Positions 22,550 to 27,322 of a DNA stretch of 36,512 bases are shown here, piece by piece (the first letter of the stretch is position 1; each line of letters starts with the position of its first letter). A program made the translations under genes and the position numbers. The notes beneath the pieces are model-generated. The model was not told where the DNA came from and ran no database searches. It worked only from the letters and a program-made list of their open reading frames with translations. This DNA is from Clostridia bacterium (GTDB lineage Bacteria; Bacillota; Clostridia; Peptostreptococcales; Anaerovoracaceae): contig JAKSSR010000007.1 of NCBI GenBank assembly GCA_024402995.1, positions 1 through 36,512 on the forward strand, in the 5' to 3' direction.

Positions 22550-22939
22550 ATGAGACTATATCCCAATCAGATCGCTTTGCTTCAGGCACACCCTTATTTC
22601 GATCACATTTCCGATAAGGACATGACCTGGTTCCTTAACTGCATGGACGCAGAGTGGTTAAACGTAAAGGCCGGAACGGTACTTTGCGAAAAGGGCGAAA
22701 AGACCGAGTTTGTCCCCGTGGTCCTGGAGGGCAGCACTGATGTTGATATCCCACGCTTTTCGGACTGGGAAAAAATCGAAAGCCAGAGCGGCCTGTCACA
22801 TTCAATAATAGCGCTGGTTCCCTCTGTAAGCTGCGTCTGCACAACAGACTGTACCGTCATTTCACTAAGGGTCATGCGCCTTCTCAAGCCCTGCAATTTC
22901 CATTGTCCGTTCCATGTGGGAGTTGCTGAAAAGATTTAG
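22550..22939 (+). CDS. Crp/Fnr-like effector domain without a DNA-binding domain
   Basis: A 129-residue protein resembling the N-terminal sensor half of Crp/Fnr regulators: LLQAHPYFDHISDKDM (about 10-25), the turn VKAGTVLCEKGEKTEFVPVVLEG (39-61, given as KAGTVLCEKG and VVLEG blocks) and a later strand TDCTVISL. The phosphate-binding cassette expected for cAMP binding is missing, and the protein stops at PFHVGVAEKI, where the dimer helix of full-length relatives would begin, so the helix-turn-helix is absent. C95, C97, C101, C115 and C119 cluster near the end and might bind metal or sense redox. The ATG has AAAGG upstream; the next gene starts 17 bases after the stop, so no remnant of an HTH remains. 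It could be a decayed regulator or a stand-alone sensor. Confidence 0.7.
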   Translation: MRLYPNQIALLQAHPYFDHISDKDMTWFLNCMDAEWLNVKAGTVLCEKGEKTEFVPVVLEGSTDVDIPRFSDWEKIESQSGLSHSIIALVPSVSCVCTTDCTVISLRVMRLLKPCNFHCPFHVGVAEKI

Positions 22940-22956: not shown

Positions 22957-23532
22957 ATGTTAAACGCGGAAAATTTAAGTTTTTCATATAAAAACAACAA
23001 AGTGCTGGACGGTCTGAGCTTTACCCTTGCCGACGGCGAGTGCCTTATTTTTACCGGGGCAAACGGTTCCGGCAAATCCACGGTTCTTGCCATTGCCGCA
23101 GGTATTTTAAAGCCCGATTCCGGTAATATCACAGTTGATGGGGCCGTGGCATACTTGCCCCAGGCCAATGCTCTTTTTGCCGATATGACGGTTCTGGCAA
23201 ATCTCCGCTTCTTTGCGAAATTGGCCGGGAAAAAGCTTGAAGGAGAGCTTCCCTTGGGTCTTGAGGAACTGAAAAATAAAAGGGTCGGCAAGCTTTCCGG
23301 CGGTCAGCAGAAAAGGGTCAGTATCGCCTGCACCTTTATTGCGGATGCCGACATTCTTCTTCTTGACGAACCCTGCAGCGGTCTTGACAAGGACTGGCAG
23401 GAGTGTTTTCTGAATATGGTTTCGGAAAAGAAGAAAAAGGGCTGCAGCATTATATACGTCAGTCATAATCCGGACGAATACTCCGGATTTGCAGATAGAA
23501 TAATTGATTTTACTAAGGAGGACAATAAATGA
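22957..23532 (+). CDS. ABC transporter ATP-binding protein
   Basis: Cytosolic ATPase subunit of 191 residues, short for an exporter ATPase (usually 220-300). All motifs are present: Walker A GANGSGKST (34-42), Q-loop Q69, signature LSGGQ (113-117), Walker B ILLLDEP (133-139) and switch H170. The helical region between the Q-loop and the signature is compact. It overlaps the zinc-ribbon gene by ATGA, and two ABC-2 permease genes follow; these are its likely membrane partners. Confidence 0.93.
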   Translation: MLNAENLSFSYKNNKVLDGLSFTLADGECLIFTGANGSGKSTVLAIAAGILKPDSGNITVDGAVAYLPQANALFADMTVLANLRFFAKLAGKKLEGELPLGLEELKNKRVGKLSGGQQKRVSIACTFIADADILLLDEPCSGLDKDWQECFLNMVSEKKKKGCSIIYVSHNPDEYSGFADRIIDFTKEDNK

Positions 23533-25145
23533 TCTGCCCAAATTGCAAAACTGAAATTGAAGAAGGCGCCGCTTTCTGCCCCAACTGCGGAAGCGCAATA
23601 ATTAGGGAAGAAGCGCTTGCCGCAGAAGCAGCAGAAGCTGCTGAAGAAGTTGCTGCTGCTGAAACTGCAGCAGAAGAACCTGCCCCTGAAGCTCCCAAGA
23701 AGAGCAAGAAGGGACTCATTATCGGAATCTGCGCCGCAGTTGTCGCCGCCGCCGTTATTGCCGCCGTGGCTGTTTTCGGAAGCAATCCCCTTTCTCTCGT
23801 ATCCGAAGCCGCAAAGAATACTGCAGAGATCCGCAGTGCCAAGGCTAAGGAACTGGGCACTCAGATGAGCGTGGCTCTCAATTACGATCTGACTGATCTT
23901 TCCGCAGATCTTCTGGGCGTTGAACTTCCCGCAAGCGCCGACATCGCTTTTGCCGTTGACGCAGCCGACGTCATGTATGCTCTCAATGCCAGCGTCAGCA
24001 TTAAGGATAACCCCTTTGCAGACGTAAGCGCATGGCTCAGCAAGGACGAAATGGTAGTCAGCAGCGATACTCTTCTTGGAGAATCCTACGGTGTCAGCCT
24101 TGCAGACATGGCCCAGAACCTTCCCGGTTCTGTCCTGAACCCCGAACAGGGACTTTTCACCCAGGAAGAATATGACGTGCTGATGAATTATGCTGAAAAT
24201 CTGGACAAGACAGACGCCTTCATCCTTGATCTGAGCAATGTTATCAACAGCACCTTCGCGGTCACTGCAAACAGTGCAAAGAGCAACAGCAAGGCAGAAA
24301 AGAGCAAGAACGAAGTCGATTTCGGCGGCGAAAAGCTTCAGGCGACCGTCGTTACCGTCACCTTCACCGGCGAGCAGTTTGCCAACATCGTATCTGATAC
24401 TGTTGAATATCTGAAGAATGATGAGTACATTAAGGAAAATCTGAAGAACCTCAGCGAAAACTTCGCGGAACTCTTCGAAATCTATACCGGTCAGCCTGTG
24501 GCAGAAGCTCTCAACAGTTTCAATGAAGGACTGGAAAACTTCGATAAGCAGAATATCATCAATGAGTACGGCAGCGATGAGATCGTTCTCACCGTTGACT
24601 TTACTGTTAACAGCGCAAAGGAACTGGTAGGGATCAAGGGCGACTTCACTCCCGAAGACCTGCACTTTGATTATCAGTGCGGCCCCGACGCAGCCAAGCC
24701 CGTTTATACCGCAGTATCCGTCAAGTACGGCAATGAAGGCGTAAGCACCACTTATACCATTTCCGAAAACAATGACAGCGTCTACAGCGCAAAGGCCAGC
24801 GTAGATGTTGAAGACGCAGTTTCTTTCGATGCTGATATTGACTGGAACAAGGCCAGCGGAGACTTTACCGTCAAGAGCGGAGACATTGCTTTCAAGGCAG
24901 ACGTAAAGAAGAACGGCAGCGTAACCGTTATCGTTCCTCAGGCCATTGAAGGACTTGGTGTGGATGAATACAGCGATTACCTGAATAAGGCAACCATTAC
25001 TGTCAGCCGCAGTGTTGAATTCCCCGCAATCCCCGAATATAAGGATCTTCTGACCATGAGCGCTGAAGAAATCGTAGACATGGCAGACCAGATCGAAGCA
25101 GTTCCCGATACTCTGTTATACGGACTGTACAGCTTCCTGTTCTAA
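23529..25145 (+). CDS. Zinc-ribbon, single-TM protein with a large extracytoplasmic domain
   Basis: A 538-residue protein of unknown function. A cytosolic zinc ribbon lies at the very N-terminus (C3-x2-C6, C17-x2-C20), followed by an Ala/Glu-rich linker (about 28-55), a short basic stretch KKSKKG and one TM helix (about 62-84). The remaining ~450 residues are predicted outside the cell, acidic and alternating in a way that suggests beta structure (for example DLSADLLGVELPASADIAFAV, about 120-140). No catalytic motif was recognised. It is translationally coupled to the ABC ATPase before it (ATGA) and lies nine bases before the first permease, so it probably works with the transporter, perhaps as an outer binding or adaptor subunit. 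Confidence 0.8.
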   Translation: MICPNCKTEIEEGAAFCPNCGSAIIREEALAAEAAEAAEEVAAAETAAEEPAPEAPKKSKKGLIIGICAAVVAAAVIAAVAVFGSNPLSLVSEAAKNTAEIRSAKAKELGTQMSVALNYDLTDLSADLLGVELPASADIAFAVDAADVMYALNASVSIKDNPFADVSAWLSKDEMVVSSDTLLGESYGVSLADMAQNLPGSVLNPEQGLFTQEEYDVLMNYAENLDKTDAFILDLSNVINSTFAVTANSAKSNSKAEKSKNEVDFGGEKLQATVVTVTFTGEQFANIVSDTVEYLKNDEYIKENLKNLSENFAELFEIYTGQPVAEALNSFNEGLENFDKQNIINEYGSDEIVLTVDFTVNSAKELVGIKGDFTPEDLHFDYQCGPDAAKPVYTAVSVKYGNEGVSTTYTISENNDSVYSAKASVDVEDAVSFDADIDWNKASGDFTVKSGDIAFKADVKKNGSVTVIVPQAIEGLGVDEYSDYLNKATITVSRSVEFPAIPEYKDLLTMSAEEIVDMADQIEAVPDTLLYGLYSFLF

Positions 25146-25154
25146 AAGGTATAA

Positions 25155-26351
25155 ATGCAGCTTCTCAAAAGAGATCTAACATTACTGATAAAAGGAATAG
25201 TGTCCGCGATGCTTCTGACAGGCCTTCTTATGCTTGTCTCAGGCCTCGCGGGCCTTTCTGCATTCATAGCGGCGGACGATTTGACGGTCCCTGCCTCTGT
25301 GGCCCTTGTTGACGAGGAAAACAGCCTCATCAGCAGGCTTTGTATTGGAATGGTCGAGAATACCGACTATGCTCGTGAACTCCTGGTTATTGAGAAATGT
25401 TCACGGGATAAGGCCATGGAAGGTCTTGAAAAAGGCTCTTTTGCCGCGGCCATCATCCTTCCAGAAGATTACACCTCAAGAATAATGGTTGGTGAAAGCT
25501 GCAAAGGAACCATAATATTATCTGAAAAAGCCCTGACCATGAAGGAGCTTGTACAGAGGGCCTCTGAAATCGGCGAGCAGCTTATTGCCGCCGGCCAGTA
25601 CGGCGTATTTGCCGGAGAAGACCTGATCCGCTCCGGTCAGTCGCTTACTCAGGGAGATTACGAAAAGTACCTGACTCTCTCTAATGCCGGACTTATAGAC
25701 AAGGCTTTGGATATGGAGGATGGGGCTTTTGAAACTGTAATTCTTCCGTACTCTGCCTTTGGCACCGATACTGTGTCCCATTTTATCCTCTCCTGGGCCT
25801 GCTTCTTTGCAAGCCTCTGCGGGTTGTTTTTCACCGATCTCTACACAGCGGACAGAGGTGAGGCTATACGCGACAGACTGAAAAGCTGCGGAGTCGGAAC
25901 GGTGAGTTTTGTTCTGGGAAAGGTACTCTGGCCCTTTGTTTTCAGGTGCTTGCTCTGGATCGCGGTTATTGCTGCGGCAGGACGTTATACAGCACTTGAC
26001 CTTAGCTTTGGGAATGTACTCTGGTCTCTGACCGGACTCCTCTTATGCACCTGTTTTACCACAGGACTTGCCCTTGGGTTTCCCGGAGGAGCGGCCTGGA
26101 CTGTCCTTCTCCTTTCGGTGGTGGGACTGTTTTTCTGCGGCGCAATAATTCCCCTGCAATATCTTCCCTACGGCTTCTTTACTGTCGGAAAGCTTCTCCC
26201 ATTGGGCGCTTTTGCCGGAACGGTTTCTTCTGTTTTCGGAGGCCAAGGCAGTACGTCCTCACTTATTATTTGCGCCGTATGGGCCGCAGCCTCCATGATA
26301 CTGGCTTTTGCGCAGCTTTCAAAGAGAGAGGGGAGGCCTTCTGAGATATGA
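25155..26351 (+). CDS. ABC-2-type permease (first subunit)
   Basis: Membrane protein of 398 residues with the ABC-2 exporter topology: one N-terminal TM (about 13-40), an extracytoplasmic domain of about 165 residues, then five TM segments (about 210-228, 253-275, 287-310, 313-335, 370-391). The outer loop contains ALVDEEN and MEGLEKGSFAAAIILPEDY, motifs typical of the ABC2_membrane_3 family. AAAGG precedes the ATG. It is coupled to the next permease by ATGA, suggesting a heterodimer energised by the ATPase at 22957. Substrate unknown. Confidence 0.85.
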   Translation: MQLLKRDLTLLIKGIVSAMLLTGLLMLVSGLAGLSAFIAADDLTVPASVALVDEENSLISRLCIGMVENTDYARELLVIEKCSRDKAMEGLEKGSFAAAIILPEDYTSRIMVGESCKGTIILSEKALTMKELVQRASEIGEQLIAAGQYGVFAGEDLIRSGQSLTQGDYEKYLTLSNAGLIDKALDMEDGAFETVILPYSAFGTDTVSHFILSWACFFASLCGLFFTDLYTADRGEAIRDRLKSCGVGTVSFVLGKVLWPFVFRCLLWIAVIAAAGRYTALDLSFGNVLWSLTGLLLCTCFTTGLALGFPGGAAWTVLLLSVVGLFFCGAIIPLQYLPYGFFTVGKLLPLGAFAGTVSSVFGGQGSTSSLIICAVWAAASMILAFAQLSKREGRPSEI

Positions 26352-27322
26352 GACACGTAATATCCCGCCCACTGGCAATCTTTGTACTGTTGCTTATACT
26401 TACCGCGGTCCTTCCCCAACTTGCCGTCAGACTGTCTGACAGCGCCGCTCCGCTTCCTGCCGCCTATTTTGCTGAAGGAGAGGCTGGCCCAGATGCCGCG
26501 AAGCTCTGTTCCTTCTTCGGTGATCTGGAAATGGTTTCTTACGAAAGCAGGGCTGAGCTCGAGAGTGATTTGGAAAAAGGCCGCCTGTCCATTGGTGTAG
26601 TCGTTCCGGCAGACTTTTCCCAACGTCTTGCCGAGGGTGATAGCGATGAAATACTTATACTGCTCGAGGGACGTTCTTCGGTTTTCGAAGCCCTTGAGAA
26701 AACTGAGATCAGCAGCGCTCTCTTTAAGGTCATAGCGCCTTATATCACAAAAGATTCTCTTGAAAATTCCGGATTCACCGTTGATGATGAAGCCGTGTTC
26801 GAAACATATTATTCAATGATCGATTCCGGCAGTCTGTTTACTTTTGAACAGCAGACCGTTGAAGGAACTTCCGTTGAGCCTGTAAGCAGACTTAACCTTT
26901 TCCGACTGGCTCTTGGTCTTTTGCTCTGGCTGACTGTGCTTCTGGGGATCTGTGTTCCCCTTACTGCAAGAGTAAACTCCATTGCTCCTGCCATAGGAAA
27001 GGAAAAGGCGTGGAAATGCCTTGGCATTCCGGCTTTTATCTTCGCCTTTTCAGTTCTTTTTGCCGCCGGAGCGGCATCCTGCATAATTGCAGGTTATAAT
27101 ACATTGATTCTGCCGGTCCTTCTGACAGCGGCACTTATGGGTCTTGCCGGCCTTGTTCTGTGCCTTGTCTTTCCCGGCGGTCACATATGCACCTTAGTGT
27201 GCGTATTCCTCGCGGCCTTTGCGCCTGCCCTTTGTCCGGGACTTACCGATATATCTCTGGTGGTACCCGTGATCGAAAAAATAAGAGTCATATGCCCCGT
27301 TTACTGGCTGTGGCTTTTATGA
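26348..27322 (+). CDS. ABC-2-type permease (second subunit, shorter)
   Basis: Membrane protein of 324 residues, related in layout to the preceding permease: N-terminal TM (about 7-27), outer domain (about 28-185) with LEKGRLSIGVVVPADF matching the LEKGSFAAAIILPEDY block of its neighbour, then four clear TM segments (about 190-212, 232-255, 258-282, 285-305). It ends at VYWLWLL, where its neighbour continues for about 50 residues with a sixth TM, so this subunit lacks the last helix. A 41-base gap then precedes plsX. Probably the second half of a heterodimeric exporter. Confidence 0.82.
   Translation: MRHVISRPLAIFVLLLILTAVLPQLAVRLSDSAAPLPAAYFAEGEAGPDAAKLCSFFGDLEMVSYESRAELESDLEKGRLSIGVVVPADFSQRLAEGDSDEILILLEGRSSVFEALEKTEISSALFKVIAPYITKDSLENSGFTVDDEAVFETYYSMIDSGSLFTFEQQTVEGTSVEPVSRLNLFRLALGLLLWLTVLLGICVPLTARVNSIAPAIGKEKAWKCLGIPAFIFAFSVLFAAGAASCIIAGYNTLILPVLLTAALMGLAGLVLCLVFPGGHICTLVCVFLAAFAPALCPGLTDISLVVPVIEKIRVICPVYWLWLL

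Follow-up and report, generated by a model that had tools for sequence, protein, structure and literature searches.

NosD is an outer protein encoded together with an ABC-2 ATPase and permease (NosFY), and it is a soluble periplasmic beta-helix protein. A membrane-anchored extra subunit has a precedent in LptC, whose transmembrane (TM) helix lies at a lateral gate of LptB2FG and which reduces the ATPase activity and accepts LPS (PMC6744409). In Lactococcus lactis, Llmg_0524 and Llmg_0526 carry an N-terminal CX2CX10CX2C ribbon that binds zinc, and their deletion affects the cell wall (PMC4628341). The locus analyzed here lies in a DNA stretch of 36,512 nucleotides from a Clostridia bacterium (the window), which belongs to a draft genome of 1.69 Mb in 120 contigs with 84% completeness. 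One of its proteins has the layout of zinc-ribbon membrane proteins of the TcaA/Llmg_0524 type, namely a four-Cys ribbon followed by a TM helix, and its gene stands among the genes of an exporter.

Exporter operon and protein architecture

To describe the gene setting, the ORFs of the window were compared with Pfam and with related loci. The genes glpK, a short ORF, the ATPase, the outer protein, permease 1, permease 2, plsX, plsY, and gpsA follow one another in this order, all on the + strand; the names glpK, plsX, plsY, and gpsA were assigned by eye from the translations. The ABC ATPase (191 aa, 22957..23532, +) matched PF00005 (E 1.8e-25), and its Walker A (GANGSGKS), signature (LSGGQ), Walker B (LLLDEP), and H-loop motifs were intact by eye. 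Permease 1 (398 aa, 25155..26351, +) was assigned to ABC2_membrane_3 by PF12698 (E 8.8e-18) and by its relatives, and by eye it has one N-terminal TM helix, an outer loop of ~150 aa, and then the other TM helices. Permease 2 (324 aa, 26348..27322, +) is diverged and was assigned by homology only: it had no Pfam match of its own but showed 29% identity to L059:7439-8524 (E 2e-37), and several permease-2 homologues do match the permease-1 profile. The system is identified as an ABC-2 exporter by the three ATPase motifs (Walker A, signature, and Walker B) and by the ABC-2 permease domain. The outer protein gene (23529..25145, +) shares 4 nt (ATGA) with the ATPase gene and is separated from permease 1 by 9 nt, and its strong Shine-Dalgarno sequence AAGGAGG (23515..23521, +), read from the sequence, is within the end of the ATPase gene. 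The coordinates and Pfam matches thus confirm the sequence-only reading, which had placed the gene between the ATPase and permease genes of one exporter.

According to the ORF list and the translation, the outer protein gene starts with ATG and encodes 538 aa, and homologues occupy the same place in other operons. At the N terminus is a zinc ribbon, CPNC-X10-CPNC (residues 3-23; 23535..23597, +), which matched PF13240 (E 2.3e-7, 30.9 bits against a cut-off of 25) and is optional in the family. It is followed by an Ala/Glu/Pro-rich linker with a basic KKSKK stretch (23604..23708, +; linker sequence EEALAAEAAEAAEEVAAAETAAEEPAPEAP), recognized in the translation, and by a single TM helix identified by hydropathy (residues ~62-84; 23712..23780, +), with the N terminus inside as judged by the positive charges. 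Because the TM helix comes after KKSKK, the ribbon is predicted to lie inside and 454 residues outside (23781..25142, +); this extracytoplasmic domain was assigned to the distant DUF6583 superfamily by profile comparisons. The ORF, the PF13240 match, and the hydropathy agree with the architecture proposed earlier, in which an Ala/Glu linker joins a four-Cys ribbon to one TM helix and a large outer part.

Two further ORFs of the window were noted. The short ORF at 22550-22939 had a weak match to a cyclic-nucleotide-binding domain (E 0.013) and appears shortened or diverged. Opposite the outer protein gene there is an antisense open frame of 400 aa (23463-24665, -), with nothing indicating a real gene.

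Linkage of the outer domain with the exporter

The distribution of the outer domain was assessed by single-sequence and profile searches. Among 350 genomes of the same family, single-sequence searches with the outer domain and with permease 1 each found the window alone. Since the other family genomes are without outer domain and permease, the linkage in the lineage of the window rests on one genome; close relatives are few in number. For permease 1, relatives were found in 38 other genomes when 391 genomes of the class were searched. An alignment of 13 outer proteins (A1) served as a search profile; its members had been chosen next to permeases and are therefore not independent evidence. With A1, 46 other genomes were matched in the class, but only 8 others in a phylum sample of 398 genomes. 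No match was found on plasmids, viral contigs gave no match or ribbon-only matches, and a contig scan gave ribbon-only matches with dissimilar outer parts.

In total, 28 loci from 15 families have the outer domain next to genes for an ABC ATPase and one or more ABC-2 permeases; apart from the window, these are 27 loci spread over 14 further families of the class. Three gene orders were observed. At 11 loci the order is ATPase-outer-P1-P2, with P1 and P2 denoting the two permeases (the window, L059, L061, L062, L063, L064, L074, L114, L116, L134, and L115+L128, the last split over two contigs and counted as one); at nine it is outer-ATPase-P1-P2 (L124, L125, L135, and L178-L183); and at eight the outer gene faces the exporter genes, which run ATPase-P1-P2 (L065-L070, L126, and L127). 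L074, L180, and L182 are incomplete and stop inside the exporter genes, only one permease was recognized in L116, and the second permease of L134 was judged by TM count only. The four genes of the window recur in unchanged order at L059, the closest linked relative, which lies in the genome with the best permease-1 match (G591); identities to the window are 45% for the ATPase, 24% for the outer protein (E 3e-21), 36% for permease 1, and 29% for permease 2.

Co-occurrence with the permeases, the check suggested for the original proposal, was then quantified. All 15 of the best permease-1 loci (E up to 7e-9) are in genomes with an outer-domain match. Conversely, ten independent genomes found via the outer domain and absent from the permease-1 match list (G469, G736, G517, G606, G493, G537, G703, G618, G653, and G720) were all linked. 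At the genome level, 22 co-occurrences were observed against 4.7 expected among 391 genomes (Fisher p 4.6e-13, a value that is uncorrected for kinship and inflated by it). The outer-domain distances correlate with the permease distances (r 0.85), as would also be expected from shared descent alone. Because homologues share the same setting in other families, the gene setting is more than chance. Throughout the class the outer domain turned up again next to an ATPase and a pair of permeases of this kind, even when it was found independently of the permeases, which supports the earlier claim that the outer protein is a genuine partner of such exporters.

The outer domain was also found away from the exporter. 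Outside the seed alignment, 15 of the 39 class loci examined were linked and 24 were unlinked, and the unlinked loci were mostly of the DUF6583 type (family f67) or from family f58 and genus g173. The outer domain can thus act without this exporter, because the wider superfamily is mostly without ABC-2 neighbors. The counterargument that the protein occurs mostly without ABC-2 partners therefore holds for the wider superfamily (24/39 loci) and not for the nearest linked relatives. In g173, the outer proteins resemble the window protein as closely as L059 does (27% identity, E 2e-29) and have no ribbon, and their genes are unlinked to the exporter, the clearest case adjoining NAD(P) transhydrogenase genes. 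The permease is elsewhere in five of the six g173 genomes with an outer gene, ~14 kb away in two of them (two of these five permeases were already in the search alignment). This indicates that the outer gene and the permease are separable on the chromosome and still mostly co-occur. Genome G540, with an outer gene, has no permease, and G619, without an outer gene, has a weak permease match only.

These unlinked loci bear on an explanation in which the protein has a stand-alone surface role in wall or envelope stability and its position among exporter genes is incidental. The many superfamily loci without ABC-2 genes and the transhydrogenase neighbors in g173 are consistent with it, but the linkage recurs in 15 families and in three gene orders, even when found without the permease, and we regard this explanation as improbable.

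Homology and fold of the outer domain

The outer domain had no Pfam or NCBIfam match. The outer protein did not match PF20224 (DUF6583) at E up to 1, so that the gathering score was not reached, and TcaA outer domains of Pfam gave no match at E up to 1 either. Because identities among outer proteins are low (12-27%), homology was tested with controls. The outer parts of the window, L059, and L115, with the TM helix removed, matched an alignment of twelve independent proteins at 97.4% (E 1.1e-11), against 0.6% for the reversed control. Furthermore, A1 matched A4, an alignment of seven DUF6583-type proteins, over 433 columns with probability 99.4 and E 2e-21; three of these seven match PF20224 directly. 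The window and L059 alone matched DUF6583 only weakly (30%). These comparisons show a very remote relationship of the outer domain to Pfam DUF6583, running through intermediates, since the window protein by itself falls short of DUF6583. The likeness to DUF6583 (PF20224) includes an N-terminal single TM helix, a large outer domain, and the same order of conserved blocks; the difference is that DUF6583 loci were seen without adjacent ABC-2 genes. DUF6583 was not named in any paper in the literature searched.

The conserved residues of the outer domain are structural (N, Y, G, S, P, F, L, and W), with no enzyme-like His/Cys/Asp set. A profile search against PDB sequences returned only three chance-level matches, to designed proteins. 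Single-sequence structure prediction of the whole protein reached a pLDDT of 35.6, and the alternating strands and helices of this model carry no weight as a sign of a LolA/LppX-like lipid carrier fold (a half-barrel beta sheet with helices in its cavity). For residues 85-368, the prediction reached a pLDDT of 50.2 and a pTM of 0.47, and a PDB fold search with this low-confidence model found nothing (best E 0.6). A match of the outer domain to an unrelated enzyme, which would have spoken against the exporter reading, did not appear: the sole relation found was to DUF6583, which has no known function.

Additional features were seen in the wider superfamily. DUF6583-type genes of one genus (L119:6100-7806, L123:6055-7806, and L132:2635-4350) adjoin a pair of fused TM-ATPase ABC exporter genes, which is a different exporter class from ABC-2. 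Two outer-domain relatives in f58 (L110:5720-7726 and L117:6419-8476) carry a BamE-type domain on the C-terminal side (PF04355, E 6.4e-8 and 2.8e-7).

Variation of the zinc ribbon and the anchor

The sequence-only reading had further suggested that the protein may couple the state of the ATPase to a chaperone-like domain on the outside. In such a mechanism, the ribbon would dock on the ATPase and move the outer domain through the TM helix. The predicted topology places the ribbon and the ATPase together on one side of the membrane, their genes overlap, and the ribbon is present in 7 of 28 linked outer proteins (the window, L065, L067, L069, L070, L124, and L125). However, it is absent from the other 21, the closest linked relative L059 included. 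A tree built from the ATPase and permeases of 20 loci requires no fewer than four changes of ribbon state, also when only well-supported branches were considered, and the nearest neighbor of the window on this tree is L059, without the ribbon. L114 and L135 have lipobox-like starts (FISSC and TAAASC, respectively); they look like lipoproteins, which would have no cytoplasmic part. Such ribbons are also common on unrelated membrane proteins, and in other proteins a ribbon of this kind is followed by outer domains that differ greatly. Because the ribbon is mostly absent and its state has changed repeatedly, and because two linked relatives look like lipoproteins, we conclude that it is an exchangeable N-terminal cap and not a coupling device. 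Coupling through the ribbon is thus very unlikely. The ribbon and even the TM anchor appear to be dispensable in the family, suggesting that the outer domain is the part that matters.

Proposed role of the outer protein

As judged from gene context and homology, the outer protein probably serves a heteromeric ABC-2 exporter as its dedicated extracytoplasmic subunit, in an exporter type that occurs in scattered lineages of the class. The exporter would consist of the ATPase, two permeases, and one anchored outer protein, with the anchor holding the outer domain beside the outer loops of the permeases. On the outside, the outer domain may receive, hold, or release the exported molecule, or it may gate the permease. 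ATP-driven changes would reach it via the permeases and not via the ribbon, which may stabilize or anchor the N terminus as a removable cytoplasmic cap. A bolder version, which we put forward tentatively and consider possible, is a four-gene Clostridia export machine in which the DUF6583-superfamily outer protein is the obligatory substrate-handling subunit, an independent counterpart of LptC in bacteria without the Lpt route, and in which the anchors (ribbon-TM, plain TM, or lipid) are freely swapped.

As an alternative, the outer protein could be of a sensor or immunity type, with the outer domain detecting an outside molecule (a peptide, an antibiotic, or a lipid) and either switching the exporter or sequestering the molecule for removal. 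An anchored protein that is encoded with an exporter and variable in sequence would suit such a role. The gene is separable from the exporter (facing in family f17, elsewhere in g173), which fits no need for a fixed amount, and the Lactococcus ribbon-TM-outer protein Llmg_0524 affects cell-wall integrity (PMC4628341). However, neither a sensor kinase nor a consistent regulator gene is linked, and the loss of the ribbon and the lipoprotein anchors leave no inside part for direct signaling, so that we consider this alternative unlikely.

With regard to the substrate of the proposed exporter, our guess is an amphiphile or an envelope component. The neighbors glpK, plsX, plsY, and gpsA, which might indicate a lipid substrate, were discarded as evidence: plsX of five relatives in the family or order was without these neighbors within 5-6 kb. 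In the same comparison, a sixth plsX relative shared only a weak, distant kinase match, and the L059 exporter was elsewhere. In f17, the exporter and the outer protein adjoin a secreted protein of ~1000 aa with a phosphodiester glycosidase domain (L065:7019-10000 and L126:1-3097; PF09992, E 7.5e-33 and 3.4e-32), and the same glycosidase-type gene was recognized in L067, L068, L069, and L127 by similar start or size. This neighbor may hint at what is exported in f17; being confined to f17, it gives no general clue to the substrate. In two families (L074:1012-3256 and L066:1754-4023), a gene pair near the exporter encodes a short protein resembling a regulator and an AMP-ligase-like protein; the starts are very similar.

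These results tie a superfamily of no known function, the DUF6583 neighborhood, to a definite machine, a two-permease ABC-2 exporter, which makes its function testable. The eye-catching zinc ribbon is an exchangeable extra, and experiments should target the outer domain.

Comparison with known systems

Llmg_0524 and Llmg_0526 resemble the window protein as membrane proteins with an N-terminal ribbon, and the ribbon of the window protein also has the CX2CX10CX2C spacing. The likeness covers the ribbon and TM layout, whereas the Lactococcus genes share their operon with one short gene and no ABC exporter. NosD resembles it in being an outer protein encoded alongside an ABC-2 ATPase and permease, but NosD is soluble and periplasmic, whereas the window protein is membrane-anchored. 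The profile search against PDB sequences, among which solved NosD structures would be present, detected no similarity to NosD.

The same search with the outer domain detected no sequence similarity to LptC, which has a beta-jellyroll fold, and to our knowledge, these organisms are without the Lpt outer-membrane route. The likeness to LptC is one of architecture: both proteins combine one TM helix with an outer domain, and both accompany a transporter encoded by a single ATPase gene plus two permease genes. The outer domain of the window protein is, however, ~3 times larger, and the permeases here are of the ABC2_membrane_3 type. The outer subunit would work at the outer face of its exporter as LptC does for LptB2FG, by analogy rather than by shown homology. 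If the subunit role is true, the LptC-like exporter architecture extends beyond the Lpt system.
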